A stretch of DNA of 64,000 nt from positions 434,001-498,000 of the forward strand of contig NZ_CP031946.1 of assembly GCF_003443535.1 (NCBI RefSeq). The letters run 5' to 3'. This DNA comes from Ruegeria sp. AD91A (GTDB lineage Bacteria; Pseudomonadota; Alphaproteobacteria; Rhodobacterales; Rhodobacteraceae). Numbering within the stretch: position 1 is the stretch's first letter; each line of letters begins with the position of its first letter. This document shows positions 17,875 to 39,194 of the stretch, piece by piece. The position numbers and the translations under genes are program-made. The notes beneath the pieces were generated by a model. The model was not told the origin of the DNA. It did not search any database and saw nothing but the letters and a program-made list of their open reading frames with translations.

Positions 17875-18992
17875 CTGTTCTGACCGGCGGTTTCCTGTAT
17901 CTTGAACACCGTATCTAGGACCAGAGCGGCAGGGTCAAGGTTGACAGCCTGACCATGTCGCGCCCGGGCTGTGATCGTCGCGGCGACCTCGGCCCAGCGA
18001 CGGGCTTGATCCGGCGATGCTGACAGACGCGCCAGTGTTTCACTCTCGTTGGGGGCGGCTTCAGGAACCGGTGGTGTGCCTGTTGCCCCGGTCAGGGCCA
18101 GCCGTGACAGAGCAACGTCGATCAATGTTAGCAAAAGTTCAAACCGGTCTGCCGCGCCGCGCTGCGCCGCCGCTTCGGCCAAAGCCAGCGCGCGCTGGCG
18201 GTCCATACGGGGCAGGGTGCCCAGTATGGCGATCAGTTCGGCATAGATGTCCAGACCACCCAGATTGATCAAACGCTCGGCGTCTCCGACTGAACCCGCC
18301 GCAAGCGCAGCAAGGTGTTCAGTCTGAGCGGGAATTTCGGTTTCCGTTTGTGAAAGGGCGGCTTGCATGTCTTGCGCGTTCAGCGGGCCGAGGCGCAGCG
18401 TGCGACAGCGCGAACGGATGGTTGGCAACAGGCGCGAGGGTTGGTGTGACACCAACAAAAGGGTGGTGCGCGCAGGCGGCTCTTCCAGCATTTTCAGCAA
18501 CGCGTTGGCAGCGCTGACGTTCATTTCGTCCGCTGAATCCACGATCACGACGCGGCGGCCGCCGTCAGCAGAGGACAGGCCAAAAAACTTCCCGAGCTTG
18601 CGGATGTCATCCACGACGATCTCACTGCGCAGCCGTCCCTGATCGTTCAGCGATCTGGCTATCGCTGCCAAACCCGGTTCTGCCCCGGCCTGAATGCGAT
18701 GGGCTACCGGGTGGTCAGGATCAATGTCGAGCGTCTCGGGCGGAGGCGGCGCGCCGAACAACCCGTCATCCTCTGCCGGAGGTGTAGCAAGCAGGAACCG
18801 CGCAATTCGCCAAGCCAGTGTCGCCTTGCCGACACCGCGTGGCCCTGTCAGCAGCCAACCGTGATGCAGACGGTCCGAAGTGTAGGCGGTCAGAAATGCC
18901 TGTTCAGCCGCGTCCTGGCCAAAAAGCCGAACGGTTTCGCGCGGATGTGGTGCACCCGGCACCTGATCCGGGGAAGGGATATCGTCGCTCAT
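17871..18992 (-). CDS. holB: DNA polymerase III subunit delta'
   Basis: The 373-residue clamp-loader subunit has the AAA+ Walker A region GWLLTGPRGVGKATLAWRIA (about residues 44-63), the DSADEMNVSAANALLKMLEEPP segment and the sensor motif SRLLPTIRSRCRTL. It helps load the sliding clamp at the replication fork. Only three bases separate it from the tmk stop, and it overlaps tatD by four. The Walker A lysine is kept, although delta' usually does not hydrolyse ATP. Confidence 0.92.
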   Translation of the reverse strand: MSDDIPSPDQVPGAPHPRETVRLFGQDAAEQAFLTAYTSDRLHHGWLLTGPRGVGKATLAWRIARFLLATPPAEDDGLFGAPPPPETLDIDPDHPVAHRIQAGAEPGLAAIARSLNDQGRLRSEIVVDDIRKLGKFFGLSSADGGRRVVIVDSADEMNVSAANALLKMLEEPPARTTLLLVSHQPSRLLPTIRSRCRTLRLGPLNAQDMQAALSQTETEIPAQTEHLAALAAGSVGDAERLINLGGLDIYAELIAILGTLPRMDRQRALALAEAAAQRGAADRFELLLTLIDVALSRLALTGATGTPPVPEAAPNESETLARLSASPDQARRWAEVAATITARARHGQAVNLDPAALVLDTVFKIQETAGQNR

Positions 18993-19622: not shown

Positions 19623-20785
19623 ATCGACTCCAGCGGGTTGTTGATCACGTCTTTCAATACGATACTGCCAACAGTCAGCATACGTACCAAAAAACCGCCG
19701 ATCGCAACATCTTCAGCTGCCACCAGCGGTCGCCGGATTTCCGGCAGACCTTCGGGTTTGATCACCAGTTCGGCGAGTTGCTGGCCTTTCTTGACGGGCG
19801 CATTGATCGGGCCCTCATAGACCACTTCGGCCTCGACATTCTGTGTGCCCAGAACCGGGAACAGCACGTTCAGATCACCATCGGGGACAAGCCCCACGGT
19901 CTTTTTCTCGCCCATCCATAGTTTGGCTTCGGCTATCGGCGTTTCCGCGTTGGCAACTGTCCTCTCGACAAAATTTCGAAACGACCAGTTAACCACGGCT
20001 TCAGCCTCCTCTGCCCGCTGGCCGGTGCTGTCGAGACCCGTCAGCACAAAGATCACCCGCCTGTCACCTTGTTTGGCGGACCCGACAAGGCCATAGCCCG
20101 CTTCTTGCGTGTGGCCGGTTTTCAGACCATCCGCACCGATATCAAGTCGCAGCAACGGGTTGCGGTTACGGGCATTGGACGGTGCGCGGCCATCGAACTC
20201 GAAAACCTCTTCGGCGAATAGAGGGTAGTATTCTGGAAAGTCGGAGATCAGGCGATCCGCAAGAACGGCCAGATCATGAACCGACATCATATGCCCAGCG
20301 GCGGGCCAACCGTTTGAATTTGCGAAGTTCGAATTGTTCATGCCCATTTGCTTGGCTCGCTGGGTCATGTATCGCGCAAACCCCGCCTCGGTGCCATCCG
20401 GGCTGAGCGCTTCGGCGATGACGACGCAGGCATCATTGCCCGACAAAACAATAATGCCGCGCAGCAGATCCTCGACACGAACGCGATCTTGCGTGTTCAG
20501 GAACATGGTCGATCCGCCATAGCTCATCGCGTGTTCTGAAACGGGCAGAGTTTCGTCCAGCGTCAAGCGTCCGTCCCGCAACGCTTCGAACGCGACGTAA
20601 AGCGTCATGAGCTTGGACATCGACGCGGGCGGCAACGGCTGGTCGGCCTCTTTCGACAGCAGTACGGTACCGGTGGTTTGGTCGATCACATATGCCGCAC
20701 GGGCAGATGTATCAAAAGCCTGGGCAGGTATCGCCAGAACGGCAAACCCGAAAGCCAGAACGGATGTTCGCATTGAGGATAGCAT
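19619..20785 (-). CDS. D-alanyl-D-alanine carboxypeptidase (PBP5/6 family)
   Basis: The 388-residue penicillin-binding protein trims peptidoglycan stem peptides in the periplasm. A signal peptide (about residues 1-23, ending AQA) is followed by the catalytic triad motifs SMSK (SxxK), SGN (in VLSGNDAC) and KTG (in DGLKTGHTQEAGYG). The C-terminal PBP5-type domain with a hydrophobic tail follows. It is 16 bases downstream of the SPOR lipoprotein gene and overlaps tmk by four, linking envelope and replication genes. Confidence 0.93.
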   Translation of the reverse strand: MLSSMRTSVLAFGFAVLAIPAQAFDTSARAAYVIDQTTGTVLLSKEADQPLPPASMSKLMTLYVAFEALRDGRLTLDETLPVSEHAMSYGGSTMFLNTQDRVRVEDLLRGIIVLSGNDACVVIAEALSPDGTEAGFARYMTQRAKQMGMNNSNFANSNGWPAAGHMMSVHDLAVLADRLISDFPEYYPLFAEEVFEFDGRAPSNARNRNPLLRLDIGADGLKTGHTQEAGYGLVGSAKQGDRRVIFVLTGLDSTGQRAEEAEAVVNWSFRNFVERTVANAETPIAEAKLWMGEKKTVGLVPDGDLNVLFPVLGTQNVEAEVVYEGPINAPVKKGQQLAELVIKPEGLPEIRRPLVAAEDVAIGGFLVRMLTVGSIVLKDVINNPLESM

Positions 20786-20801
20786 GTTACGACTCCCTGA
20801 A

Positions 20802-22100
20802 TTAGTCGGTTACCGTGAACGCGTCTTTGAAGCCAAGGTCTTTCACGTCCTTTTGAAAGGCTTTTCGCTCGGCCCGGGTTGCGGCGGGGCCAACCAACAC
20901 TCGCCAGACAGTACTATTTGCTGTTTTCAATTCCCGTACAACTGTGGGCATGCCGTTCCGACGCACTTTTTGGGCGGCTGACTTGGCGTTAGCCTCGACG
21001 CTGAAGGTTCCGATCTGAACAAACGGTTTGCTCAGAGGTGTCGCCGACGTTGTGGCGGCTGCGACAGGAGTGGCTTCTGACGCATCAATTGCGGCTGCGG
21101 CCCCCTCTACCGGATCCAGTGGCGTTTCGGTGATCGCGGCGGGGTCTTTCTTTTGCCACCATTTCCGTTTGGCAGGTGGCTCAGCTGGGGGCGTGACCGG
21201 TGCATCCGACAAAGAGGGTGACACCACGGCTTCGGCGGCTTCGGCGGCTACGTCTGCGCTGTCAGTCGCCGTATCAGCCGCGGCCACAGCAGTTCCCGCG
21301 GCAGCAGCTGCGGGGGCTTTCTTCTGCCACCATTTCCGCTTGGCTGGTTTTTCGGCAGGTGTGTCGACCTGATCGTCCGTAGAAGTGGGCGTCTCGGCGT
21401 CTTCGCTTGCGGTCTCGGCGTTTTCAGCCGTTTCATCCGATGCACTGTCAGTCCCCGCTGCAACCGCAGCCGTACCAGCCGCAGCAACGGCAGGTTCCTT
21501 CTTTTGCCACCATTTTCGTTTGGCCGGTTTTTCCGAGTCTGTAGAAGCTTGAGTGTCGGAAGCTCCATCAGCAGCCGCGGCGGTGGTTTCCGCTGCCGAT
21601 TCTTCTGCCTCCGGCGCATCCTCCGGCGATGGTTCTTCCAGCTTTTCCCGGCGCAGTGCGACGACGCTGACTTTTGTCGGCGCGCCCGCAAGCATTCCGA
21701 GCTCTTTCGCAGCAGCGGACGAGACCTGAAGCGCGGGTCCGGGCAGATCGCGCTCGCGCCGGAACAGGGCGCCAGTCACGGATTTGTTGTTAGAGGTGTT
21801 TCTGATCACGACACGCTCAGGTTGTGAAACGTCCGGGTGAGCAACCCAAACCCCGCCAAGGGACGGGCGGCCATCCCAAAGCCCTGCTTCGGTTGTCTGA
21901 AAAACCTCAGGGGCTTCGACATCACGCTTAGAGCTGGTGGTCACGTCGGGCAGGAGTTCTGTTTTCCCCGAATTTTCTTCCGGTTTCTCAGCCGATTCAG
22001 AAGTTGAAAAAGCCTCTTCGCATCCGGCCAGTATCGTCAAAGTCAACGCCAGATACGCCAGCCGTTTCGGCCCCGGGCGTGTCTCGATCGCTCGCTTCAT
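20802..22100 (-). CDS. SPOR-domain lipoprotein, RlpA-like, with three KRKWWQKK repeats
   Basis: The 432-residue protein has a lipoprotein signal with lipobox LAGC (Cys27). Residues about 90-150 look like a divergent RlpA double-psi barrel (ERVVIRNTSNNKSVTGALF, then VSSAAAKELGM), and the C-terminal about 355-432 is a SPOR domain that binds septal peptidoglycan lacking stem peptides. Between them an Ala/Glu/Thr-rich linker carries three copies of PAKRKWWQKK at about 192, 252 and 309, spaced about 60 residues. It is likely an envelope or division protein, the first gene of the operon with the carboxypeptidase and tmk. Confidence 0.85.
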   Translation of the reverse strand: MKRAIETRPGPKRLAYLALTLTILAGCEEAFSTSESAEKPEENSGKTELLPDVTTSSKRDVEAPEVFQTTEAGLWDGRPSLGGVWVAHPDVSQPERVVIRNTSNNKSVTGALFRRERDLPGPALQVSSAAAKELGMLAGAPTKVSVVALRREKLEEPSPEDAPEAEESAAETTAAAADGASDTQASTDSEKPAKRKWWQKKEPAVAAAGTAAVAAGTDSASDETAENAETASEDAETPTSTDDQVDTPAEKPAKRKWWQKKAPAAAAAGTAVAAADTATDSADVAAEAAEAVVSPSLSDAPVTPPAEPPAKRKWWQKKDPAAITETPLDPVEGAAAAIDASEATPVAAATTSATPLSKPFVQIGTFSVEANAKSAAQKVRRNGMPTVVRELKTANSTVWRVLVGPAATRAERKAFQKDVKDLGFKDAFTVTD

Positions 22101-22302
22101 CTGCTTATCCCTTGCCTGAAGGGGTTTCGTTTTCCGAACCCCGCTGCCGGTCTGCCGGTTCTGTATGCCAGCCTGTTACGGTCTTTCGAACGGATCATAA
22201 CGTGGCTGAAGTGTCATGGAAAGACCGCTGCACAGGCTTCGGCAAGATTTCCCGATTTCGGCTTGCCTCTGGTCGAACTTCGCCTTAGACCCTGCTGTCG
22301 AC

Positions 22303-22392
22303 GGGGAGGTGGCAGAGTGGTCGAATGCGGCGGTCTTGAAAACCGTTGAACGTGAGAGCGTTCCCAGGGTTCGAATCCCTGTCTCCCCGCCA
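22303..22392 (+). tRNA. tRNA-Ser (anticodon TGA)
   Basis: A 90-base class II tRNA. The acceptor stem is GGGGAGG paired with tctcccc (one G-T pair), followed by discriminator G and encoded CCA at 22390-22392. The anticodon loop is cttgaaa, giving anticodon TGA. There is a long variable arm and the T-arm carries ggttcgaatcc. An integrated element begins immediately after it, so its 3' end is the likely attachment site. Confidence 0.96.
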
Positions 22393-22439
22393 CTTATCAA
22401 CCACTAAGCTGATTGCAGCTAGGTCGAGCGGTCACCACC

Positions 22440-22460
22440 ATTTGCGTTTCATTTGCGTTT
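22440..22460 (+). repeat. Tandem 10-base repeat, candidate integrase arm-type sites
   Basis: The 10-mer atttgcgttt occurs at 22440-22449 and 22451-22460, one base apart, about 50 bases after the tRNA-Ser 3' end. Short direct repeats at this distance from an attachment core are typical of arm sites bound by tyrosine integrases. Binding is inferred from position only. Confidence 0.4.
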
Positions 22461-22473
22461 GGAGGTTCAAGGT

Positions 22474-23004
22474 ATGCCCGATAAGCCGAAAATGAACTTG
22501 CCTGAACTTGTCCATGGTGACTCTCAGGACTACGACACTATGGCAGCGTCATACCTGTTAGCTGCTGAATACCTTTGGAAAAAAGAAAAGGATGAACAAT
22601 TCCCTTTAGTCGCACCTGCGACACAGTTAGTTTGTATCGGTCTAGAATTGTTTTTGAAGGCGAGACTGCTGGAAAGTGGCCTGACACACGATGATCTTCG
22701 CAAGAATTATGGCCATAACATCTATAAAATGTGGATGCTGCCACAGTTTGAAGTCATGCGACGCAACGCACAGGCCATCGCTTTGGCTTGCGTTGAAGTT
22801 AAAAAGTCAGAGTTTTCCGATCCAAATGTTTACACATTGGACTGGACGATAAAATATCTAGATCGGTTGTATGGTGGATCGACAAATCAGGCGCTTCGCT
22901 ACCCGAAGGGTAAAACAGAAGTGCCTTATGTTCAGCCGTTATTGTGGGTGGTTTATGAATTGTTGAACAATCCGGATTGGCGTTCTTGGACATCTTCGAA
23001 CTAA
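22474..23004 (+). CDS. HEPN-like protein next to tRNA-Ser
   Basis: A 176-residue soluble protein. The segment TQLVCIGLELFLKARLLES followed by LRKNYGHNIYKMW resembles the two-helix core of HEPN domains, and RKNYGH fits the Rx4H motif of HEPN ribonucleases, though the residue after Arg is Lys rather than the usual polar Asn/Asp/His. HEPN RNases act in toxin-antitoxin and antiphage systems. The ATG at 22474 has ggagg eight bases upstream. No partner nucleotidyltransferase is adjacent. It is cargo at the tRNA-proximal end of the integrated element. The family call is tentative. Confidence 0.55.
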   Translation: MPDKPKMNLPELVHGDSQDYDTMAASYLLAAEYLWKKEKDEQFPLVAPATQLVCIGLELFLKARLLESGLTHDDLRKNYGHNIYKMWMLPQFEVMRRNAQAIALACVEVKKSEFSDPNVYTLDWTIKYLDRLYGGSTNQALRYPKGKTEVPYVQPLLWVVYELLNNPDWRSWTSSN

Positions 23005-23013
23005 ACCGAACAT

Positions 23014-23091
23014 TCACAACAACGCACCCTTTAATGCCTCAGCAGCTTTGCGGTCATCGTCGTCATCAATCGTGACGTACCCTTGTGTGCT
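23014..23091 (-). pseudogene. Remnant: last 25 codons of a second tyrosine integrase
   Basis: Read on the minus strand, this stretch encodes 25 residues and a TGA stop that match the C terminus of the integrase at 23437 with one change (Val to Ile), including the catalytic STQGY tyrosine. Many third codon positions differ, so it is a tail from a related but distinct integrase, not a recent duplicate. It stops exactly at the edge of the small membrane-protein gene. It records replacement or stacking of related elements at this tRNA. Confidence 0.8.
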
Positions 23092-23440
23092 ACATAATGA
23101 ACGTTTCATAGATCATTATCGACGCAATCATACTTCCAAAAATGGTAATACCTAGCCACCAGAAGAACGTGAACCACTGCTCTACACTGCGAATTGCAAT
23201 CGCCAGCCCAAACTTCTCACCTTGACGTGTCAGCAAGTATTTCAAGCCTTTATAGGTCCAAACAAAATAGCCTATTGTGACGCAAAAAAGCACTGTTCCT
23301 AAAAGAAGCCACATGATTGGAACAAAGATTGCTACCCAAAGCGGCCAATCCAAATAAGGCATGGTTTCCACGGCTTCAAGGTCATCTTTGATGCTGCCCC
23401 ACCAACGGCCAATTGCATACGTTATGTCGCGGATACTCAT
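23090..23440 (-). CDS. Small membrane protein downstream of the integrase
   Basis: A 116-residue protein with two to three hydrophobic spans (LWVAIFVPIMWLLLGTVLFCVTIGYFV and FFWWLGITIFGSMIASIMIYETF). No family is recognised. It starts within the integrase stop (ATGA overlap), so it is translationally coupled to it, and its stop falls at the junction with the foreign integrase tail. Role unknown; accessory proteins for defence or superinfection exclusion often look like this, but nothing here proves it. Confidence 0.65.
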   Translation of the reverse strand: MSIRDITYAIGRWWGSIKDDLEAVETMPYLDWPLWVAIFVPIMWLLLGTVLFCVTIGYFVWTYKGLKYLLTRQGEKFGLAIAIRSVEQWFTFFWWLGITIFGSMIASIMIYETFIM

Positions 23441-24573
23441 AGCAACGCACCCTTCAACGCTTCAGCAGCCTTGCGGTCGTCATCGTCATCAACCGTCACG
23501 TAACCTTGCGTACTTCGAATGTCGGCATGACCGGCCCGTGATCGGATCGTAAGGCTATCGACGCCAGCCTTGTGCAGTTGCGTGATGTTGAAATGCCGGG
23601 TGCCATGCAGGGGCAGGACATCGGCCCCAACACCAGCCGCGTCACGTATCCGTTGCGCCGTCTTGGTGACCATTTCAAGATCCAGCACTTCCCCCAGCGG
23701 TGACGCAAACACCAGATCATTGTCAGCCCAACCGGTACCAGCCCGAAGACGCCACGCGGCGACCCGCTTGCGTTGCGCACGTAACATGTCGGCGGTCGGG
23801 TCCAGCATTGAAACGCGACGGATGCCGGCGTCACTCTTAGGTTCCTTAAAGAACACTTTCCGACCGTTGGGCTGGGTGGCCGCTCGGGTGATGCTGACCG
23901 TCATGGTGTCAAAGTCCACATCCGACCAACGCAGGGCCAGCAACTCGCCACGACGCAGCCCCAGATGCGCACCGAGACGGATGATGTTTGCGATCTGACC
24001 ATAAACCGCCTGTGACGCGTCTGCGGCGTCCAGAATAGCCTGCAACTCACTCATGGTCGGGGCGCGTTTGGTCCGGTCCTTCAGGCCGCGCGGTGGCTCG
24101 ACTCCATCGACCGGGTTGTGCAGCACTTCCCGCTTGCGGACCATCGCCCGGTAGAATGCCCGAAGGACACTGCGATAATGGTTGAGTGTTCGGGGGCTGG
24201 GTGTCCGTCCGGTCGGTGTCTCACCTGCGGCCAGCTTTGCAAACGCCCGGTCCAGATCAGCGGGGGTGATATTCTTGTAACTACCATCACCCAGCAGGTT
24301 GCCCCATGCCGTCAACTTTTCACGGTGCCCGGTGGCCGTCTTGGCGCTGATATGTCCCAACGCCAGCCGATCATCGATCCAAGCCTGTGAGCGGGCCGAC
24401 AGGCTGTCTTTACCGGTCCCGTGCCGTGTCGTCTCTACATGGTGCTTGTGGGCTATTGCTTCCTGCTCACTGGTAAAGGTCCGACTGTCGCGCACGGTCT
24501 TACCGTTGCGGTCGCGCCCTGCGGACCATTGGACCGTCCAGCGGCCCGATGAGGGTTGATAGATACTCGCCAT
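23437..24573 (-). CDS. int: Tyrosine-type site-specific integrase
   Basis: The 378-residue recombinase has an N-terminal AP2-like DNA-binding part (IYQPSSGRWTVQWSAGRDRNGKTV), a core-binding SAM-like domain (about 60-160) and the catalytic domain with Arg in LGLRRGELLALRW, HGTRH, GHADIRS and Tyr in STQGYV. All the R-H-R-H-Y residues appear present. It probably integrates the element into the adjacent tRNA-Ser. It is transcribed toward the tRNA, directly downstream of the zinc-finger gene (one base gap) and coupled to a small membrane protein. Confidence 0.93.
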   Translation of the reverse strand: MASIYQPSSGRWTVQWSAGRDRNGKTVRDSRTFTSEQEAIAHKHHVETTRHGTGKDSLSARSQAWIDDRLALGHISAKTATGHREKLTAWGNLLGDGSYKNITPADLDRAFAKLAAGETPTGRTPSPRTLNHYRSVLRAFYRAMVRKREVLHNPVDGVEPPRGLKDRTKRAPTMSELQAILDAADASQAVYGQIANIIRLGAHLGLRRGELLALRWSDVDFDTMTVSITRAATQPNGRKVFFKEPKSDAGIRRVSMLDPTADMLRAQRKRVAAWRLRAGTGWADNDLVFASPLGEVLDLEMVTKTAQRIRDAAGVGADVLPLHGTRHFNITQLHKAGVDSLTIRSRAGHADIRSTQGYVTVDDDDDRKAAEALKGALL

Positions 24574-24574
24574 G

Positions 24575-24985
24575 TTATTTGCTCCTGTGTGCCGCTACCC
24601 GGCAATTGTTGCTGCAATACCGGGCCACGCGACCCTTCCCCGGCAGCATGAGGGTGCCGCACGTGCCGCAGATCGCCAGCGGACGCCGCTCTGACCATGC
24701 CAGTGTCAGTGCAATGGCAATGTGCGTATGTGATCCGCCCCAAAGCGTGACGGACCCGAAGCGACCGCCATCCGCATCCAGAGTGAAGACACAATGGTGC
24801 GCTGTGTCCTTGCTACTGGCGGCGACCGTGATGGCCTGTGCGATTGCTTGCGCCACGTCTGGGTCGATTCGTGTGTTCGGTTGGCGCTGTCCGTCGCTAC
24901 CTGGTAGCTGCCAAGCGGCATCCAGAAAGTCGGTCAACCAGTCCGGTGCGGTCCTTAATTCGGTCGGTGTCGCAAGTTTTTGCAT
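24575..24985 (-). CDS. CGNR-like zinc-finger protein
   Basis: About 136 residues from the ATG at 24985, which has gagagg upstream; an opening further upstream (25042) is less likely. The C terminus has CGTCGTLMLPGKGRVARYC followed by SNNCRVAAHR, the four-cysteine CGNR-type finger found in predicted transcriptional regulators. The N-terminal half carries no known motif. It abuts the integrase and is probably its co-transcribed regulator within the element. Confidence 0.75.
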   Translation of the reverse strand: MQKLATPTELRTAPDWLTDFLDAAWQLPGSDGQRQPNTRIDPDVAQAIAQAITVAASSKDTAHHCVFTLDADGGRFGSVTLWGGSHTHIAIALTLAWSERRPLAICGTCGTLMLPGKGRVARYCSNNCRVAAHRSK

Positions 24986-25059
24986 GGAACCTCTCAATTC
25001 AGTCAACGTGGTCAACTTAGAGGGATTGACAGGACATAACAAGACGAGTCGTTAATGTG

Positions 25060-25086
25060 CAGTAACGGCAAAGACCGTGTTTACTG
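25060..25086. promoter_or_regulatory. Inverted repeat in the divergent control region of the integrase and excisionase genes
   Basis: The arms cagtaa (25060-25065) and ttactg (25081-25086) form an inverted repeat between the minus-strand zinc-finger/integrase unit and the plus-strand excisionase-like gene. A ttgaca box lies at 25026-25031. It is a plausible operator for a switch between integration and excision; no regulator was matched to it. Confidence 0.4.
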
Positions 25087-25104
25087 TAACGAAGGGGTAA
25101 AGAT

Positions 25105-25311
25105 ATGGAAGAACCCAAAACTACATTGATGCGTCCACTGGCCGATCTGGCTGAACCGCTGGATGTCACCAAGGCGGCGATCTATGCCGCTGCGCACAAA
25201 GGCTACATCAAGTTTGTCCCGGTCGGGTCCAGCATGAAGATCAGCCAAGAGACCTACGAATACCACCTGAAGAACGGATACGGGCCGTCCGTGCCGTCGA
25301 TTGCAGCCTAA
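25105..25311 (+). CDS. Excisionase-like/AlpA-like small DNA-binding protein
   Basis: The 68-residue protein contains a winged-helix-like motif: DLAEPLDVTKAAIYAAAHKG followed by the wing residues FVPVGSSMKISQETYEYHL. Such small MerR/AlpA-type proteins act as recombination directionality factors or activators in integrative elements and phage satellites. A gaaggggtaaag ribosome-binding site lies upstream. It is divergent from int and is the first gene of a rightward unit leading to the DUF3987 ATPase. Confidence 0.65.
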   Translation: MEEPKTTLMRPLADLAEPLDVTKAAIYAAAHKGYIKFVPVGSSMKISQETYEYHLKNGYGPSVPSIAA

Positions 25312-25370
25312 CCAGTTTCATCGCGGTAATCCCGGCCTGCCAGTCACGGGCAACGGTTTGCGATGAAAAA

Positions 25371-25397
25371 ACCCCCCGGCTGTGCTGGCCGGGGGGC
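25371..25397 (-). terminator. Strong GC hairpin, terminator-like on the minus strand
   Basis: The arms ccccccggc (25372-25380) and gccgggggg (25388-25396) form a perfect nine-base-pair stem with a seven-base loop. On the minus strand it is followed by six T; on the plus strand no T run follows. It may stop antisense transcription into the excisionase region, or act as a structured leader for the next gene 38 bases downstream. Confidence 0.55.
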
Positions 25398-25434
25398 GAA
25401 TAAACCCTCTCACAACACGAAAGAGGAACGTGAC

Positions 25435-25716
25435 ATGAATCATAATAACGCAACGGGGTCGGAAATGAAAATTCGCTGGATACGACTGTTCACCTCAGGT
25501 CTGGGTATGCCGAACGACGGCCTGCCAGACTTTGGCGATTTTGTCGGCACTGTCGATGCCAATGACATCAAGAGTATTTTCCCCTGTCCCAAGAGTAATG
25601 AACACCTGTTCGTGCTGGTGGAAGGCCGGGAGGATAACGGAACCGTGGCCCGTGACATAGTTCTGAAGACCGACCTGTTTGCGATCTTTCCTGATCTGGC
25701 CGTCACGTTTCCATGA
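25435..25716 (+). CDS. Small protein of unknown function in the integrated element
   Basis: A 93-residue protein from the ATG at 25435, preceded by aaagaggaacgtgac. It contains IRWIRLFTSGLGMPNDGLPDFG and ends LFAIFPDLAVTFP; no family is recognised. Its stop overlaps the DUF3987 gene start by four bases (ATGA), so the two are coupled and probably work together. Confidence 0.6.
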   Translation: MNHNNATGSEMKIRWIRLFTSGLGMPNDGLPDFGDFVGTVDANDIKSIFPCPKSNEHLFVLVEGREDNGTVARDIVLKTDLFAIFPDLAVTFP

Positions 25717-27197
25717 TGATTGCAAATGGTGCGTATGCACCCGGCGCGAAGGTGGAAGGCGCAATGCTTCCACCCGGCGCCTATGAACCCGTCGATCTGT
25801 GGGGCCAATTCGATCCGCCCGGTCTGGACGTGTCGCTGTTACCGACCGCACTGCAAATGTGGGTAAAGGTCCAAGCGTACCGCATGGGTGCCGATCCGGC
25901 TGGTCTTGGCGTGGCCGCTCTGGTGGCCTGTGCTGCGGCAATACCGGACCAGATCACCATCAAGGTCAAACGGTACGAGGAATGGACCGAGTCGGCCCGT
26001 CTGTGGGCCGCTCTAGTGGGTTTACCGTCCACCGGCAAGTCACCGATCATCAGTGCAGCAACCCGACCGCTCAAGAAGCTGGACAACGATATGTTCCGCG
26101 CGTGGCGTCAGGAAGTCCAGCAATGGAACGATGCACCCAAGGACGAACGTGGACCGCCTGTGATGCAGCGCCGTCTGGTTTTACAGGATACCACGGTCGA
26201 AGCGGCCCAAGCCGTGCTGGAAGGAAGCCCGTGGGGCGTGATGATGCTTCAGGATGAGTTGTCGGGTTTCTTTGGCGCGATGGACAAATACGGGGGCAAG
26301 GGTGGCTCTGCGGATCGCGGGTTCTGGCTTCAGTCGTGGAATGGCGGCGTCTACAGCATCAACCGCGTCGGTCGCGGGTCCAACCAAGTGCCGAACCTGT
26401 CTGTCAGCCTGTTGGGTGGAATCCAGCCCGAACCGATCCGCAAGCTGGCCGCAGACGCGCAGGACGATGGTCTGTTGCAGCGTTTGTTCCCCATTGTGCT
26501 GAAACCCAAATCACCAGGTGTTGACGAACCGACGCAGGATGTGGACACGCACTATCGCCAATTGATCGGCTGGTTGCGGGGTCAGGGTTTGCCGCTGGGT
26601 ATGCCTGAAGCGGTTCTGCACTTCGATGACGGTGCGCAGCAAATCCGGCGTGAGTTGGAACAGAAGCACTACGACCTGCAATCGCTGGAAAGTGTCAGTC
26701 CGAAGCTGGCCGCACATGTGGGCAAGTATGACGCCATGTTTCCCCGGCTGTGCCTGACCTATCACATGATCGAAGCTGGCAGGATCGACCAACCGATCAC
26801 AGCGGACACAGCGCACCGTGTCAGCCGGTTGCTGCATGAATTCCTGTTTCGTCACGCTGCGGTCTTTTATTCGGGGGTGCTTGGTTTGTCGGATGAACAC
26901 GACCGTCTGAAGAATATAGCCGCTTTTATATTGGCTCACAGGCTGGACTGCATATCGAACCGTGACGTTCAACGTGGTGACCGTGCGATGCGTAAGATCG
27001 ACAATCGGGACATCCAGCCGTTGCTGGAACAGCTTCACACGCTTGGTTGGTTGGACAGCGCTGTGTTTACGAAAGTTGGTGTTCCACCGCTGTGGGTCGT
27101 CAACCCAACCGTTCACGTGATGTTTGCGGAACGTGGACAGCGCGAAGCGGAACGCCGCGAATTGGAAAAAACAACAATACAACAAGCACTTAGGTGA
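25713..27197 (+). CDS. DUF3987 family ATPase/primase-helicase-like protein
   Basis: The 494-residue protein resembles DUF3987 proteins of phages and mobile elements. A P-loop GLPSTGKS lies at residues 103-110 and an acidic MLQDELSGFFG Walker B-like strand near 190. VPNLSVSLLGGIQPEPIRKL and DGLLQRLFPIVL are family-typical. These proteins are found where a replicative helicase or primase would sit in satellites and integrative elements. The gene is coupled to the 93-residue protein and is directly followed by an iteron-like repeat cluster, supporting a replication role. Biochemical activity is inferred. Confidence 0.78.
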   Translation: MMIANGAYAPGAKVEGAMLPPGAYEPVDLWGQFDPPGLDVSLLPTALQMWVKVQAYRMGADPAGLGVAALVACAAAIPDQITIKVKRYEEWTESARLWAALVGLPSTGKSPIISAATRPLKKLDNDMFRAWRQEVQQWNDAPKDERGPPVMQRRLVLQDTTVEAAQAVLEGSPWGVMMLQDELSGFFGAMDKYGGKGGSADRGFWLQSWNGGVYSINRVGRGSNQVPNLSVSLLGGIQPEPIRKLAADAQDDGLLQRLFPIVLKPKSPGVDEPTQDVDTHYRQLIGWLRGQGLPLGMPEAVLHFDDGAQQIRRELEQKHYDLQSLESVSPKLAAHVGKYDAMFPRLCLTYHMIEAGRIDQPITADTAHRVSRLLHEFLFRHAAVFYSGVLGLSDEHDRLKNIAAFILAHRLDCISNRDVQRGDRAMRKIDNRDIQPLLEQLHTLGWLDSAVFTKVGVPPLWVVNPTVHVMFAERGQREAERRELEKTTIQQALR

Positions 27198-27332
27198 CGT
27201 GTGTCACCAGTGTCCCTTGCGTAGGTGTGTCACCAATGTCCCTTCTGTATGAGACGTAGAGTCAAAACACTCTCTCTTTATATAATGTGGTAGATATTTT
27301 CGCTACGTACGCGCAGAAGGGACACTGGTGAC
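27194..27332. repeat. Iteron-like direct and inverted repeats, candidate replication origin
   Basis: The 18-mer gtgtcaccagtgtccctt (27202-27219) recurs with one change at 27228-27245 (26-base spacing), and a 16-base exact inverse aagggacactggtgac lies at 27317-27332. The intervening 70 bases are AT-rich (tttatataatg). GGTGAC-N4-GTCACC at 27194-27209 adds a palindrome over the first copy. Repeats around an AT-rich stretch directly after a helicase-like gene suggest an origin or a regulator site. Confidence 0.5.
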
Positions 27333-27995
27333 AGTTTTCATGGGGGCTGGGGTCGCGGTAATTCTACCAACGATATAGTAAATCCCCAATAAACTGATCA
27401 TGTGTTCAGCAACACCAGCAGCACACAACACCAGCAATTAATCCTATAGGTCACGCTTGCCCAGCAACGCTACGTGTTAGATCACACGTTACATGCAGAG
27501 CGTATTGGGCCACACGTGTGAACGAGTGACTTGTTCCACATCCTGCTTGAAGGGCGAGGATGGTATCGTGCCCCGCGTCGATCAGTATGCATCCGGCTGT
27601 CACCAGCAGCGGTGCGCAGCCCTGCGGTCAGGTCGCCATGCTCTGGTGTGCCGTCGCAGGTTGGTAACCTTCCTGCGGTCCGGATTGGCTCGGGTTTCCA
27701 CGTGTCGGAACACGGCGATCTTCTTAAAAGGATTCGACTCTTCCTGCTTCCCTCATAACCCCACCGTATAGAACATATTCTATATGCCATATATGGTGTG
27801 ATTGGTGCCCGGATTGTACCGTATCGGGCGGGGGGCAAGCAGAGACTTGATCTTGGACCACCCCACCGCGACGGGGATCGAATCTTTAACGTTAACCGAG
27901 GTTCCGCCCTATAAAATGGCTGCTACATGCAACAGTTACAAACGTAACTAATTGTCCTAATATCGCTATCAAATCACGCCGATTTAGGGGGATTT
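27333..27995. other. Gene-poor stretch in the integrated element
   Basis: About 660 bases without a convincing gene. Minus-strand and plus-strand openings of 75-118 codons are present, but their translations are Arg/Cys/Pro-rich and lack a ribosome-binding site. A palindrome ccatatatgg lies near 27788-27797 in AT-rich DNA. It may contain promoters for the gene at 27996 or an RNA. Confidence 0.4.
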
Positions 27996-28490
27996 ATGGC
28001 CAAAAGACGCAAACAACGCTCTGATAGCGAAGATCAGCTTAAACGAGACGCAAGAGCGCCCGACCTGTCCGCAGCGACCGCACCGCGCGACGTCCCCGGC
28101 GCTGATCTGTTGGGTGACAGGGGCCGCGCTTACTATGACCAATTTTACCGGACCCGGCATGAATGGGCGATTGCTGATCTGGCGCTGATCGTGATCGCAT
28201 CGCAAGCCTTAGAGCGCATCTGGTATCTTCAGGTAGAACTGAACATGCAGCCTACGATGTACCACCATCCTCAGTCTGGAATGCCTCGTGCCAATCCCGG
28301 CTATGCTCTTTTGGGTGAATTGCGACGCACGGTGCAATCGGCGCTCAGAGACGCCGGGGTTCGACAGCGCGACGGACACACCGATTCCGACGCGAATAAC
28401 CCCAAGCCCGCGCAATACCAAACAACCACCGCCACCACCGCCGGCACCGGCAGCTTTGATGATTGGATGGGTGACCATGGACTTCATTAA
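27996..28490 (+). CDS. Phage terminase small subunit-like protein (P27-type)
   Basis: A 164-residue protein. The helical core YYDQFYRTRHEWAIADLALI, then ASQALERIWYLQVEL, followed by SGMPRANPGYALLGELRRT and SALRDAGV follows the layout of P27-type terminase small subunits (helical DNA-binding region, then NP and a terminal helix). The last 35 residues are low-complexity Thr/Asn/Pro. It has an aggggga ribosome-binding site. No large terminase, portal or capsid gene follows, as in satellites that redirect a helper phage's packaging. The family call is by eye. Confidence 0.5.
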   Translation: MAKRRKQRSDSEDQLKRDARAPDLSAATAPRDVPGADLLGDRGRAYYDQFYRTRHEWAIADLALIVIASQALERIWYLQVELNMQPTMYHHPQSGMPRANPGYALLGELRRTVQSALRDAGVRQRDGHTDSDANNPKPAQYQTTTATTAGTGSFDDWMGDHGLH

Positions 28491-28923
28491 CGCAGCCGAC
28501 GTCCAGCGGGTGACCGGGGGTTTACCTGCCGAGATTCCGACCGGCCACGACCGGCGTCTGGCGCTGTTTCTTTGGGTGATCGACAGTTGCCGGAACGGTG
28601 GACTTGCGTACCAGATCGAAGACGCACTTCTCTGGAACAACTTTCCTTTTCCGTGGATGAACGAAGCGGCCCGCGATCTTGCGACCTTCAACGGCAGGTG
28701 CCTGCAACTCGGGTGGCCGACTGCGTTGGCTGGACTGAAGCACAAGGCCGCCCATCCCGGAGATTGGCTGTATCAGGGCGGTGAAAACAATGGCCAAAAG
28801 TCAATGGGGGTGGCAACCTGGCTATGTCCAGCAGCAGCCAACACCAGCCGCACCAAAGCGCCATGTCACGCTGTACAGCGATTGAGTGGATTTTTGGTCG
28901 ACGTACGAAAAAGCAAAACTTAA
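28477..28923 (+). CDS. Protein of unknown function coupled to the terminase-like gene
   Basis: A 148-residue protein from the ATG at 28477, overlapping the preceding gene by 14 bases. It contains RRLALFLWVIDSCRNGGLA and NEAARDLATFNGRCLQLGWP and a tail rich in basic residues. No family is recognised. Overlap with the terminase-like gene suggests a linked role in the element. A longer opening starting at 28288 only reads the preceding gene in another frame. Confidence 0.5.
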   Translation: MDFINAADVQRVTGGLPAEIPTGHDRRLALFLWVIDSCRNGGLAYQIEDALLWNNFPFPWMNEAARDLATFNGRCLQLGWPTALAGLKHKAAHPGDWLYQGGENNGQKSMGVATWLCPAAANTSRTKAPCHAVQRLSGFLVDVRKSKT

Positions 28924-29064
28924 GAGTAGAAAGACGCGACTTGTCAGAGCGGATTCTAGAATACGGCGTTACGGATAAGCCATTCTAAACCTAGTTGAGC
29001 CTGACCAACTTGAAACCTAACAACTCAATCGGACTACTTCACTTTATGACGGACACAAGGCTTT

Positions 29065-29313
29065 GTGAATCGCGACCGAATGAAAATGGAACGCCTGATG
29101 GAGGGTCACAGCAACCGATACACCGCCGAGAAGTATTACGCAGCTCTGCACACTTTGACCAAGATCAACCGCTTCGATCTGTACAACGGCCGACTGGCTG
29201 GCCTAACAGTCCGGAAGACGTCATCAAACATATCGAATAAATTCGAAGGGGACTACTCAATTGAAACGGGGTATTTACCCGAATGGATAAATGCACTTTC
29301 GAGAAAAGGCTGA
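29065..29313 (+). CDS. Possible small gene, 82 codons
   Basis: The opening encodes 82 residues (MNRDRMKMERLMEGHSNRY..., ending NALSRKG) with a helix-rich, charged composition. There is no clear ribosome-binding site and no recognised family. The surrounding 28924-29427 stretch holds nothing else that looks coding, and a competing frame overlaps it. It could be a real small gene or the remnant of a larger one. Confidence 0.3.
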   Translation: MNRDRMKMERLMEGHSNRYTAEKYYAALHTLTKINRFDLYNGRLAGLTVRKTSSNISNKFEGDYSIETGYLPEWINALSRKG

Positions 29314-29427
29314 TAAGAGCGATGGCGCCGGACACAGTGTACCATCAAGTTATTGGACAAGGCGTATCCACGTTAGTGTTTCTTGTTTCGCGCGGATACA
29401 CACTTGGAGTGTCTGCTATCTCACTTG

Positions 29428-30747
29428 TTAGCAGTTCAATATGTCGTCTTGCGTAAGATCACCAATTGTAACGCCATTTAGGGCCAAAGTGCCTGCGGCC
29501 CCAAAATCAAACAAGACGCCATCCTGCGTATCTGATGCAACATTTATTGCTTCGTCAAAACTGTTTATCCCGACACCGCACAAGTCCAAAACATCACTAC
29601 CGGTATCTCCAGCCTCGAAATCAGTTATGACATCGTCCCCTATGGAGCCGATAAAAATAAACGTGTCGGCACCTTCTCCCCCTGAATACACGTCGTCTCC
29701 AGAGTCTACTGCCTTTTTACTGTTGCCTTTTCCGTCAGAAGCGCCGCGACCACCATTTCCCCAGAAATCTGGTCCACGGCCATTGGGGTTTTCTCCAGCA
29801 TTTCCGACAGATTTGTCGTTTCCAGGGTTTCCACCTGAGCCTCCAATTGGGAACATTGGACCGTCGATTATAACATCATCACCTTCTCCAGCTTCAACGT
29901 TATCGTTTCCGCCGCCAGCGTTTATTGTGTCGTCTCCTTGATAGGCCAAAAAGAAGTTATCGTTGTCATTGCCCAGTATGACGTCTTCTAACTCTGAACC
30001 GTTTACCCAATCAATATTTGTCAGGTTGTCAGTGAATCCCCAGTTATCAATTACTATCCCATCCTGAAGGTTTACAAAAACGCCTTGCGTTGGTGGCCCA
30101 AAGTCATCTCCGCCACCGTCAAAATAATCGACGATGGTCAATTCGCCGCTTGCGGCACCAATAATGACGTCATTTCCGGAGCCGGGAGATACAAAGCCGC
30201 CCGTTGTTGTTTGAATGATGACATCGTCTCCGCCACGAGCAAAAACATACCCTTCGTCCATCCAGACAACGTCTGCAAAACTTGTTAAATGACCACTATC
30301 AATGCTTCCAGTGAAGCTGTCTATTGATCCATATTCGTCAATCGCCGTGCGACCTTGCACAACAACGCCGCCAAAATTCTGCTCAACGCTTGAAACGTTT
30401 ACAAAAACTCCGCCAATGGCCGAAGTCTCATAATAGTAAACTCCGTCTATTAGAACATCGTCGCCCGGACCACCGTTCAAAAAGCCAAATTCAGCGGTAA
30501 GCGTATCATTTCCTTCTTCACCAAATAGAAAGTCCAAAACATTGTTGGCTACATCTCCTGCGCCACCGTCCAGAAAGTCGTCTCCACTACCTCCTGCAAT
30601 AAAATCTGTGCCATCGCCTCCTTCAATAATGTCGTTTCCATCCTGCCCACTGATTGTGTCATTGCCGGCCAAACCTAGAATATGGTCGCCTTGTGCCGTA
30701 CCAATTAGGTTGTCGTCACCTGGTGTTCCTACAATTGGGTTTAGCAT
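29428..30747 (-). CDS. RTX-type calcium-binding protein
   Basis: The 439-residue acidic protein has no N-terminal signal peptide and contains hemolysin-type nonapeptides GGxGxDxUx at the N terminus (GGDGTDFIAGGSGDDFLDGG) and again near 275-300 (GNDNVEAGEGDD) and 355-365 (YSGGEGADTFIF). Such proteins bind Ca2+ and leave by type I secretion through a C-terminal signal; the C-terminal 60 residues fit that role. gtggagaggaaag precedes the ATG. Composition is AT-richer than the backbone, in keeping with transfer. No type I secretion genes are near. Confidence 0.85.
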   Translation of the reverse strand: MLNPIVGTPGDDNLIGTAQGDHILGLAGNDTISGQDGNDIIEGGDGTDFIAGGSGDDFLDGGAGDVANNVLDFLFGEEGNDTLTAEFGFLNGGPGDDVLIDGVYYYETSAIGGVFVNVSSVEQNFGGVVVQGRTAIDEYGSIDSFTGSIDSGHLTSFADVVWMDEGYVFARGGDDVIIQTTTGGFVSPGSGNDVIIGAASGELTIVDYFDGGGDDFGPPTQGVFVNLQDGIVIDNWGFTDNLTNIDWVNGSELEDVILGNDNDNFFLAYQGDDTINAGGGNDNVEAGEGDDVIIDGPMFPIGGSGGNPGNDKSVGNAGENPNGRGPDFWGNGGRGASDGKGNSKKAVDSGDDVYSGGEGADTFIFIGSIGDDVITDFEAGDTGSDVLDLCGVGINSFDEAINVASDTQDGVLFDFGAAGTLALNGVTIGDLTQDDILNC

Positions 30748-30918
30748 CTTTCCTCTCCACTAAAGTAATTGCGGCCGGAGCAATAAGGACTATTAACCGG
30801 CCAATAAGAAGTTTTTATTGCTTTGCAAAATTCGCAGTAAGCCAACCTTAACACGATAAAGCGTTTAGCCAAAATGACAGGGAGCAGTTTTATACTCCCG
30901 AAACTTGACTAGGCCAAT

Positions 30919-31536
30919 TTAACAATATCCAGCCCGTACTATCCTCGCCCTAGCTCCCGGCGTCTCTAAATGACGATAGCGCCCACCTGAATACCGGCGG
31001 CAATCCAGGGCATGACCTGCGGCGATTGAAGCTGCACCGATGTCTACGCCATCCACAAAGCATACTCCAACCCAGCGGTCGTATGTGCGTTCCCCACTCA
31101 GTTTGCAGGTGACGATCTTGCCGCGCAGGTGATCCGCCATCCACCGCTTTGCTGCGATCCCAGCGCTTGTACTCAGTTCCGGCCCGTCTACACCGTTCAG
31201 TCTCACTGGAACGCCCTGAACAACGATAGTGTCTACGTCCCGAATTCGAGCGGGGCCTTCCACCGTGCGCTGGTTGGTTGGGTTCGAGCCGAAGCTGGTA
31301 AGAAACAGCGCGACAGCTGTTAGAGCCGCCATCCAGAGAATTACAGACTGTCTTGGAGACAAGGAAAGCGGCAACTTAAGACGCGATCTGCGACGAAGTG
31401 GAACGACATTGCCTCTGAATCGGCGGGCATGGAAATAGTGCCGTGCTGAACCGATGAGTGACATTGTCAGAAAGAAACCAATCAAAGCCACAAGCGTCAA
31501 AATTGGGTTGTCTACGAAGTGCAAATTTTTTCTCAA
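30919..31536 (-). CDS. Membrane-anchored thermonuclease (SNase-like) family protein
   Basis: The 205-residue protein has two hydrophobic N-terminal spans (about 12-30 and 63-82) and a C-terminal staphylococcal-nuclease-like domain: RDVDTIVVQGVPVRLNGVDG, then LSGERTYDRWVGVCFVDG and ALDCRRYSGGRY. The catalytic Arg/Asp residues of RLNGVD and GERTYDR are present. It would act on nucleic acid outside the cytoplasm. It is downstream of nothing on its strand and is probably cargo. Confidence 0.75.
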   Translation of the reverse strand: MRKNLHFVDNPILTLVALIGFFLTMSLIGSARHYFHARRFRGNVVPLRRRSRLKLPLSLSPRQSVILWMAALTAVALFLTSFGSNPTNQRTVEGPARIRDVDTIVVQGVPVRLNGVDGPELSTSAGIAAKRWMADHLRGKIVTCKLSGERTYDRWVGVCFVDGVDIGAASIAAGHALDCRRYSGGRYRHLETPGARARIVRAGYC

Positions 31537-31708
31537 ACTCTTGACTAGTCAGTAAACGGCGTCGCCAGGCGAGTTACATCTCAATGTCCGAATGCATTTG
31601 AGAGTTTGCGCCATAAATAAATAACTTTCAGCTAGTTATGGCGGGAATTCAAAAGCAAACACCTCGATCCGTTCCTAAATCGACCATGAAGGAATGGAGA
31701 AGTAGGAC

Positions 31709-32071
31709 ATGAAAATCAAGAAGACACTTCCAGCTTTTGGCGTATGCGGGGTTTTGTTTACGTCTGCCTGCGCACAGCAGCCTGGGGCAATAACTCCCGT
31801 TTCAATGGGTGACACTTATAGTGAAGTTTCCTGTTCACGCGCTGCAAATCTTTACAAGCAGGAATCGGCAAAAGTTCCGACTTTGGTTGCAGCCCAGAAA
31901 CAAGCCGTAACAGGGGATGCACTTGGGGTGTTCCTGATTGGCGTTCCAGTGTCCAGCCTTTCTGGCGCAGACTTGGAAGGTGAAATTGCTGCTACAAAGG
32001 GCAAACTAGTGGCTCTCGCTGGCCGTCTCGAAGCCTGCGGTACTTCTCCTGCCGCAGTGGCGTGGGGTTAG
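31709..32071 (+). CDS. Putative lipoprotein of unknown function
   Basis: A 120-residue protein with a signal peptide and lipobox-like FTSAC (Cys21), then a charged helical region and a C-terminal LVALAGRLEACG. It starts after gaagtaggac. It may be a small envelope lipoprotein; no family is recognised. A GC-rich hairpin followed by aatttt lies 40 bases past the stop and is a likely terminator. Confidence 0.6.
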   Translation: MKIKKTLPAFGVCGVLFTSACAQQPGAITPVSMGDTYSEVSCSRAANLYKQESAKVPTLVAAQKQAVTGDALGVFLIGVPVSSLSGADLEGEIAATKGKLVALAGRLEACGTSPAAVAWG

Positions 32072-32112
32072 CCATTACCAGTAGTTCGTTAAGTGCCAAA
32101 CTTGGACTAAAT

Positions 32113-32156
32113 CCTGCGGTAGCTATCATCCCAGAATTGGGTGGCGCGGGAATTTT
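32113..32156 (+). terminator. Hairpin with T-run after the lipoprotein gene (copy 1 of a hairpin family)
   Basis: Arms cctgcggtagc (32113-32123) and ggtggcgcggg (32140-32150) pair at most positions with two mismatches, and aatttt follows. The loop carries tcatcccagaa, shared with the hairpin at 32896. It is probably the terminator of the lipoprotein gene. Confidence 0.55.
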
Positions 32157-32255
32157 GCGAACCAACATAATTTTAAACTTAACTCACCGAATTATGACCT
32201 ATTCGTCCATCGACGGTGAAGGGAAACGACTCAAACTGAACAAGGGGTGGAAGTA

Positions 32256-32600
32256 TTGAAACCTAAAGCACATAGATTTACCCGCAAGCCGTTTGCGTGG
32301 ACTGTTGAGGTGGAAGGGATCGGCGCAGTACCGGTTTTTCACAAGCGTCACCGAACTGGGATGCACTATCACCACATCGCCAAAGATGCGGCTCGCTTCG
32401 CTGCGCAGATGGATGCGCTGGAGGCCACTGGCAGCATGATCCTGCAATTGGATGAGTCCGACGACGATCTGAAATGTCTTGGTTACGTTGGCGGGTCCAG
32501 CACTACCGCAGCCCGCGCAACCGTATTTACTGTGGGTAACGTTCAGATCGACCGTGATGCGTTGGCTGTGAGATTTGATGTGGTCGGTTTAGCGGGCTGA
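32256..32600 (+). CDS. Small protein of unknown function
   Basis: About 114 residues from a TTG at 32256 (a GTG at 32247 is possible; aaggggtgg lies just upstream). It contains KPFAWTVEVEGIGAVPVFHKRHR and FAAQMDALEATGSMIL. No family is recognised. It is followed after 23 bases by a smaller gene in the same direction, so the two may be co-transcribed. Confidence 0.5.
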   Translation: MKPKAHRFTRKPFAWTVEVEGIGAVPVFHKRHRTGMHYHHIAKDAARFAAQMDALEATGSMILQLDESDDDLKCLGYVGGSSTTAARATVFTVGNVQIDRDALAVRFDVVGLAG

Positions 32601-32623
32601 TAGGCCAAAGGGATTACTAAAGA

Positions 32624-32803
32624 ATGAACAAGGATATTCAAGTCGGTGATTTGGTGCGAAACGTCAAATACTTCGGACGGGGTGTTCCGTATGCCATCCA
32701 GTGTGTCGAACGTTTAGATGGGCGACATGCCTGGGTCCGCCGGTTCAATACAAACGGGATGCTGGCGAAAGTTCTTTTGGAAAACTTGGAACTGGTTGAG
32801 TGA
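32624..32803 (+). CDS. Small protein, 59 codons
   Basis: Starting at ATG 32624 this opening encodes MNKDIQVGDLVRNVKYFGRG and continues to a TGA at 32801-32803, giving 59 residues in a beta-strand-rich pattern (QVGDLVRNVKYF, then YAIQCVERLDGRHAWVRRF). This looks like a small SH3/KOW-like fold. An agaatg context without strong Shine-Dalgarno precedes it. It lies directly downstream of the 114-residue gene and is too short for most gene finders. Confidence 0.5.
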   Translation: MNKDIQVGDLVRNVKYFGRGVPYAIQCVERLDGRHAWVRRFNTNGMLAKVLLENLELVE

Positions 32804-32895
32804 AGAGCGTGTTTTGGTGTGTTTGATCCACCTTACGGAACGTCACATAACAATCACGTCCCTTTAGTCTGGGCAGTCCCATGGTCAGACTAAAT

Positions 32896-32935
32896 CCCCG
32901 CGTTGCCTGTCATCCCAGAACTTGGCAACGCGGGG
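32896..32935. terminator. Perfect 12-base-pair hairpin (copy 2 of a hairpin family)
   Basis: Arms ccccgcgttgcc (32896-32907) and ggcaacgcgggg (32924-32935) match perfectly across a 16-base loop. The loop shares tcatcccagaa with the hairpin at 32113. No T-run follows (gtactattg), so it may be a structured repeat or bidirectional terminator, not a simple Rho-independent one. Confidence 0.55.
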
Positions 32936-32990
32936 TACTATTGATCCAACGTGCAATCCACGCCGTAAGTAGTTTACCCCTAACTGTCTG

Positions 32991-33035
32991 CCTGCGTTGT
33001 TCACTTGGTTTCCCTCCGAACAACGCGGGTTCTTT
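32991..33035 (+). terminator. Hairpin with T-run (copy 3 of a hairpin family)
   Basis: Arms cctgcgttgttc (32991-33002) and gaacaacgcggg (33018-33029) pair fully with one G-T pair across a 15-base loop and are followed by ttctttt. The stem shares gcgttg/caacgc with the hairpin at 32896, but the inner pairs gcc/ggc there are ttc/gaa here, a compensatory change. Confidence 0.6.
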
Positions 33036-33213
33036 TGGGGGATGAGGGGGTAACGAGTGACCGCCCCGCCATAGTGTGGGGCGTGTTTCTTGGTTAGACA
33101 TGACGCGAAACTCTATCGTATTGTGACAAAACCTTTTTGCGGCACGGGCTTCGCTATGGATAACACTGTTCTTTATTTCTTAGTTGGCATCTTTGTCGTC
33201 GGATCTACTGACA

Positions 33214-33327
33214 ATGGGTTACTATTCCAGGGGCAGTGGTGCGTTAATCTCCATCGTAATCGTGGTCGGGGTGATAGGTGCAATAATAGCGTACCTAAGT
33301 GGCTATTTCGGTGAACTCCCAAAGTAG
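33214..33327 (+). CDS. Possible very small membrane protein, 37 codons
   Basis: An ATG at 33214 opens a 37-codon frame encoding MGYYSRGSGALISIVIVVG and continuing through a hydrophobic stretch to a short polar tail ELPK. The previous frame (33157 onward) is also hydrophobic (MDNTVLYFLVGIFVVG), so one longer two-span protein broken by a frameshift is an alternative. Ribosome-binding is weak. Evidence is only the hydrophobic pattern. Confidence 0.3.
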   Translation: MGYYSRGSGALISIVIVVGVIGAIIAYLSGYFGELPK

Positions 33328-33579
33328 GCGCGACCATCGTATTGAGAGGCAATGGATGATGTGACTGATCGAATTTGGTCCAAGACGACGATTATGTTGG
33401 CAAGAAAAGAACCAGCTTCGCAGTTCCTGTGAGTGAGTTTTGCGAAGCTGGCTAATCCTTACGGCACTGGCATGGTGGCCGCAGGAGGGGTTCGCAAAGG
33501 ATTATGCAACTTGTATTTACTACGAAATGACCAACACCGATAAGCGGGCATAAGAATAGGGTACTATCCAAAAGTATAG

Positions 33580-36638: not shown

Positions 36639-36677
36639 GAGTTTTCCCCTCAGCCCAAAATTGCGGGCGCCTTGCGA

Positions 36678-39184: not shown

Positions 39185-39194
39185 ATGTCTGTTC

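Follow-up and report, generated by a model that had tools for sequence, protein, structure and literature searches.

A candidate phage satellite with a terminase small subunit gene at tRNA-Ser(UGA) of Ruegeria sp. AD91A

Introduction

The described satellites closest to the locus studied here are the phage-inducible chromosomal minimalist islands (PICMI) of Vibrionaceae. According to excerpts of PMC10803314, an integrase gene (int), alpA and a DUF3987/DUF5906 primase gene are mandatory in PICMI, and DUF3987 is a primase marker of the satellite model. The same excerpts describe a gene that overlaps or adjoins int and, for many subfamilies, a single gene located between alpA and prim; they give integration at fis as the PICMI hallmark and PICMI115 as lacking a terS homologue. 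PICMI are also characterised by excision that depends on a helper and by packaging as a concatemer. In section 10 of that paper, complete PICMI are confined to Vibrio and incomplete PICMI-like variants are assigned to other bacteria. A second group for comparison is formed by the PICIs. In the excerpts available of PMC10690885, SaPIs redirect packaging with their own terminase small subunit (TerS), and cf-PICIs encode portal, connectors and the large terminase subunit (TerL). Among the papers searched, none joined satellite, Rhodobacteraceae and terminase small subunit, and the one that treats phage satellites and roseobacters describes a different element. VEIMEs and tycheposons are likewise marine integrase elements that target tRNA genes, and the likeness of our locus to them is one of description only.

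The locus lies in a stretch of 64,000 nucleotides, hereafter the window (G000:C1:434001-498000), of a 4.4-Mb genome in two contigs. We propose that it is probably a phage satellite with tRNA-Ser(UGA) as its integration site, a reading drawn from sequence comparison.

Gene content and comparison with described satellites

The features of the element are collected in Table 1. As the initial annotation had stated, a tyrosine integrase sits beside tRNA-Ser; it contains the R, HxxR and Y motifs, which have a catalytic role in these enzymes. In phage records it had four matches of 27–30% identity, and no relative was confirmed in viral contigs. The zinc-finger-like gene next to it encodes a C-terminal match to phrog_16925 (2.3e-5), a phrog of no known function. 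On the other side, a diverged copy of the integrase 3' end adjoins the gene for the hydrophobic protein, which suggests that a second related element was once present at the same tRNA. PADLOC gave no match for 10 proteins, five from the element and five from further right, and the tRNA was the sole match in an Rfam scan of 20000–40000.

Table 1. Features of the element at tRNA-Ser(UGA), in window coordinates
Feature	Position	Strand	Remarks
tRNA-Ser(UGA)	22303..22392	+	integration target; left junction at tRNA 3' end
183-aa cargo gene	22453..23004	+	no family above cut-off, no PADLOC match, no solved relative
Diverged integrase 3'-end copy (81%), 25 codons and stop	23007..23091	-	85 nt, adjoins 116-aa gene
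116-aa hydrophobic protein	23090..23440	-	start overlaps integrase stop (ATGA)
Tyrosine integrase	23437..24573	-	PF00589 1.8e-16, phrog_1 7.3e-59
155-aa zinc-finger-like gene	24575..25042	-	ends one nucleotide before integrase start
Excisionase/AlpA-like protein, 68 aa	25105..25311	+	TIGR01764 'excise', weak call
Small gene between AlpA-like gene and DUF3987	25363..25716	+	no family match
DUF3987 replication ATPase, 494 aa	25713..27197	+	PF13148 9.5e-53
Repeat cluster	27199..27333	.	17-bp unit, possible origin
Terminase small subunit (TerS)	27996..28490	+	homologues, fold, phage neighbours
gpX	28477..28923	+	start inside terS, 14-nt overlap
Second gpX-like frame, first half missing	29065..29313	+	DNA match beside TerS in G039

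The gene first annotated as divergent and excisionase-like is indeed divergent, but its identity is a weak call, with both TIGR01764 (E=2.5e-4; 21.3 bits, cut-off 28.8) and HTH_17 (PF12728, E=0.062) below their cut-offs. The small gene that follows may truly start at an in-frame ATG at 25435. The assignment of the next gene to the DUF3987 ATPases proved correct, as its product matches PF13148 and carries the Walker A motif GLPSTGKS; no primase domain was recognised in it. DUF3987 occurs in 12 of 196 relatives (own genome counted), and a search of viral and genome contigs with the protein as a single sequence returned no confirmed relative.

The stretch from the DUF3987 gene to terS measures 0.8 kb and contains the repeat cluster. 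Three copies of its 17-bp unit are perfect, two of them direct (27202 and 27228) and one inverted (27317). With at most 3 mismatches allowed, the unit had four matches in the window, and 0 of 100 shuffles gave as many. The cluster described before as iteron-like is therefore a real repeat, although not a classical iteron array, and it may be the replication origin.

Scans of nine element proteins revealed no TerL, portal, capsid or tail family, in agreement with the earlier statement that such genes are missing, and no Rep, Par, Mob or relaxase family.

The order of int, adjoining gene, AlpA-like gene, small gene and DUF3987 is that of PICMI, and the small size and the absence of recognised structural genes are further points of likeness. 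The mandatory integrase (PF00589, 1.8e-16) and DUF3987/DUF5906 primase (PF13148, 9.5e-53) are both present, and DUF3987 does occur in described satellites, as had been supposed, being the primase marker of the PICMI model in the excerpts of PMC10803314. In contrast to PICMI, however, integration is at tRNA-Ser(UGA) rather than next to fis, a packaging-redirection gene, terS, is carried where none was identified in PICMI115, and the AlpA call is weak.

The gene order had been likened to that of PICIs. This stands insofar as integrase and TerS occur without structural genes, but the nearest described order is that of PICMI and not of classical PICIs. By description, the locus shares with PICIs and SaPIs an integrase, a divergent regulator side, a replication gene and TerS. 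DUF3987 stands here in place of the PICI replication genes, and the locus differs further in that gpX is not identified as an Rpp or interference protein and in that one of the two attachment sites, the right one, is undetectable. The cf-PICIs resemble our element's kin in one respect, as three relatives (loci L087, L092 and L130) carry a major head protein, whereas the own capsid, portal, connectors and TerL of cf-PICIs (PMC10690885, in the excerpts available) have no recognised counterpart among the nine element proteins scanned. Taken together, the element appears to combine a PICMI-like core with PICI-like packaging, and we file it as neither.

Identity of the terminase small subunit

The protein encoded at 27996, initially annotated as terminase-small-subunit-like, gave no convincing match when scanned alone against families. 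The protein database yielded one relative, and a two-row profile found four more (P0002–P0006). Genome searches detected it in 3 of 54 genomes of the genus, 4 of 394 of the family and, when the wider alignment A3 was used, 9 of 390 of the order (own genome counted in each), several of the nine being weak matches. Weak matches among the family genomes were those in G097 (8.2e-5) and G367 (4.9e-4), of which the former was left out of the further argument. One relative (L086) scored above the Terminase_4 cut-off (1.3e-7), and three matched phrog_5601, a terminase small subunit (L089, 4.3e-9; L093, 2.7e-5; L087, 2.5e-3); the phrog scan gave no match for L092 and L088. An 11-row TerS profile matched two PDB chains named terminase small subunit (2e-4 and 3e-4), and the six closest rows alone returned only those two chains, at 0.15 and 0.17.

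A first AlphaFold model built from 2 sequences was poor (pLDDT 52.9) and was set aside. The model from 11 sequences had a mean pLDDT of 74.3, with 60 of 164 residues at 90 or above. Its best PDB match was HK97 TerS (probability 0.99, E=0.32; TM 0.71 by target length and 0.47 by query), and none of the 43 PDB matches reached E 0.001. In a viral fold library, every one of the eight best matches bore the name TerS, and two scored below E 0.001.

Using the TerS profile, we found five ORFs in viral contigs at E<0.01. In four of these, a TerL-like ORF starts at most 22 nt from the end of the TerS frame, and the fifth contig ends 683 bases past TerS. The relatives, the HK97/P27-kind sequence and fold, and the phage context with terS beside terL confirm that 27996 encodes a real TerS, and the possibility of a chance ORF was rejected. 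No match was obtained when TerS was compared with 50,697 phage and 72,556 plasmid records or its relatives with the phage records, and alignment A2 gave no confirmed relative in viral and genome contigs.

Integration site and ends

Alignment to 29 relatives (29 fetched loci; 53 in the genus search) stops at 22392–22402, at most 10 nt from the tRNA 3' end. In G011 the site is uninterrupted: the tRNA is followed by 295 bp and then by backbone, and the same backbone is found here at window coordinate 102204. An empty tRNA site in a related genome, looked for as a check on the initial annotation, is thereby established.

The right end gave a different result. A search for a second copy of the tRNA 3' end (24 bases, at most 3 mismatches) found only two other places genome-wide, both of which match the whole tRNA (84 and 77%). 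No tRNA 3'-end copy of 10 bp or more was present near 29.4 kb; the best local matches there looked like background as judged without a shuffle control, and an attR at that place was rejected. The initial annotation had not found the right attachment site by eye, and no attR was detectable here either, but its limits of 22303..28923 are too narrow, because the second gpX-like frame has a DNA match beside TerS in G039, which extends the element to at least 29313.

In 18 of the 29 relatives inspected, the first 47 nt past the tRNA share 80% identity or more with a consensus. This consensus is found here at 70084 (42/47), directly after the right end of an IS6-family element (70081), so that 47.7 kb separates the tRNA from its old flank. 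IS action has probably removed attR. Given the distance of the flank and the position of the IS6-family element, this copy may be stranded, and with no right attachment site detectable it may no longer excise precisely.

Related elements with defined ends

Relatives of TerS are found in repeat-bounded elements without a recognised TerL. L092 (G014) is bounded by tRNA-Thr and, 13.3 kb from it, by a 49-bp repeat of its 3' end. The interval encodes an integrase, a Toprim primase, TerS, a weakly gpX-like product and a major head protein; none of the ORFs scanned matched TerL. Its integrase (17209–18450, phrog_1 1.6e-20) is on the strand opposite to a 486-aa plus-strand ORF, which was rejected as a gene. 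L087 has a 20-bp repeat (0/200 shuffles gave 16 bp or more) and carries int, a primase/helicase, TerS and a major head protein. L130 has a 16-bp repeat (1/200 shuffles) and carries int, a DUF5906 primase, an HTH_17 gene, a TerS-profile match, a major head protein and a Shedu defence gene. These three elements span about 13–14 kb each, and neither TerL nor portal was seen among their scanned proteins. No repeat of at least 16 bp was present in the regions compared of L086 and L093.

A gpX-like gene follows TerS in L093 and, weakly, in L092. In the protein database, gpX retrieved itself only.

Two further loci, L137 and L138, are elements of about 8 kb with int, Toprim primase and DUF3987, bounded by 15-bp repeats at tRNA-Ser(CGA) and tRNA-Ser(GGA), respectively. 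AlpA was detected in L137 only (PF05930, 6.3e-19), the candidate in L138 having no match, and their genomes had no TerS match. By their gene content, these would be PICMI-like cores outside Vibrio.

Alternative origins

Because ordinary phages also carry DUF3987 upstream of terS–terL, the main rival is a prophage remnant, i.e. a temperate phage of which only the left arm (int, regulator, DUF3987, terS) is retained, TerL and all the structural genes having been lost, perhaps by IS-mediated deletion. DUF3987 relatives were found at 72 viral loci, many from contigs of 25–56 kb, with TerL in the fetched stretch at 25 of them, and four viral contigs show the order DUF3987, TerS, TerL on one strand; IS6-family copies do lie to the right of the element. 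However, DUF3987 and TerS are 3.4–7.2 kb apart in the four phages as compared with 0.8 kb here, and gpX overlaps terS where TerL would stand, an arrangement echoed by the gpX-like genes after TerS in L093 and L092. L092 also provides a TerS element that is bounded by repeats and in which none of the scanned ORFs matched TerL. We further built a tree of 20 TerS rows, including the protein-database entries and the four phage TerS beside TerL. The window TerS groups with L086, L087, L092, L093 and P0002–P0006 and apart from the four phage TerS, at a support of 92/92, which is below the program's star level (95/80), and the tree has two long end branches. Taken over the full set of rows, the satellite label shows no clustering (3 changes, 194/500 shuffles as low), L130 being placed elsewhere. 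The tree leans to satellite TerS, and on balance a prophage remnant is unlikely.

Considerably less probable is a phage-independent integrative replicating element or plasmid-derived island in which TerS is a passenger. In its favour, the closest plasmid relative of the DUF3987 protein (48%) is encoded by a Sulfitobacter plasmid of 21.5 kb, together with RepA, ParA, MobC and a relaxase. However, none of the Rep, Par, Mob and relaxase families appeared in the nine element proteins scanned, and the TerS relatives belong to elements that carry an integrase and, in some cases, a capsid gene. To our knowledge, TerS has no use outside packaging, which also speaks against a passenger.

The variable island at this locus measures about 80 kb and contains several copies of the IS6-family element, and a piece of a second integrase lies beside the first, which might point to a chance assemblage of unrelated fragments. 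This is very improbable, as the genes follow the order of a known satellite type, phages too carry DUF3987 together with TerS, and none of the IS ends found falls within 22.4–29.3 kb.

Proposed cycle and implications

The phage-satellite interpretation of the initial annotation is supported by the TerS identity of 27996, the empty site in G011 and the PICMI marker DUF3987. Because no capsid, tail or packaging-motor gene was recognised beside the integrase, replication protein and TerS, the spread of the element most likely relies on an infecting phage whose packaging machinery it diverts. We infer a cycle in which an infecting helper phage would switch on the AlpA-like gene, whose product would act with the integrase, and perhaps with the zinc-finger protein encoded next to it, to excise the element. 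The DUF3987 protein would then drive replication, for which the repeats at 27.2 kb may serve as origin; a primase would come from host or helper, as none was recognised in the element. Finally, the element's TerS, possibly with gpX, would turn the TerL and procapsids of the helper towards satellite DNA.

A resident prophage as helper was rejected on the two TerL families searched: PF03354 is absent from the genome, and PF03237 occurs once, in a gene transfer agent cluster. That cluster (L143, G000:C1 about 674–689 kb) contains TerL, capsid and GTA_TIM (3.7e-149). PF03354 is present in two of the nine genomes with TerS-profile matches, on contigs other than that of the TerS locus.

More tentatively, and with somewhat less than even confidence in the reading as a whole, we suggest that this bacterial family has a satellite lineage in which a PICMI-like core for excision and replication is joined to a PICI-like module of terS and the overlapping gpX. 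Within it, gpX would be a new partner of TerS and would steer packaging by the helper, and part of the lineage (L087, L092 and L130) would have added only the major capsid protein, a state between minimal and full capsid-forming satellites. If the element works in this way, a further bacterial group has its own satellites, in which the minimal PICMI core and TerS packaging redirection, so far kept apart, are combined. Helper range, packaging specificity and the role of gpX could be tested in the repeat-bounded relatives, which occur in this genus and family.

Surrounding island

IS6-family copies split the island of about 80 kb. Three are in the window (39195–40012, PF13610 4.5e-41; 47514–48327; 58991–59809) and further copies lie beyond it (69264–70081 and 89925–90630), all in one orientation. 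Between the element and the first copy (29428–39184) are RTX-repeat, cyclase-TPR, Vsr endonuclease, PLP decarboxylase and alpha/beta hydrolase genes. Further right, the gene pair 48761–51848 (58 and 40% identity) recurs near the TerS element in G340 (L086), where a sulfatase related (33%) to the product of the window gene 43754–45478 is also found; PADLOC matched none of these window genes. A relative of the DUF3987 protein (34%) is carried by a 10.7-kb linear Rhodovastum plasmid record (L134; NZ_OW485609.1, RHOAph) together with a protease/capsid fusion and ParA, and this is perhaps a satellite or a small phage-plasmid.
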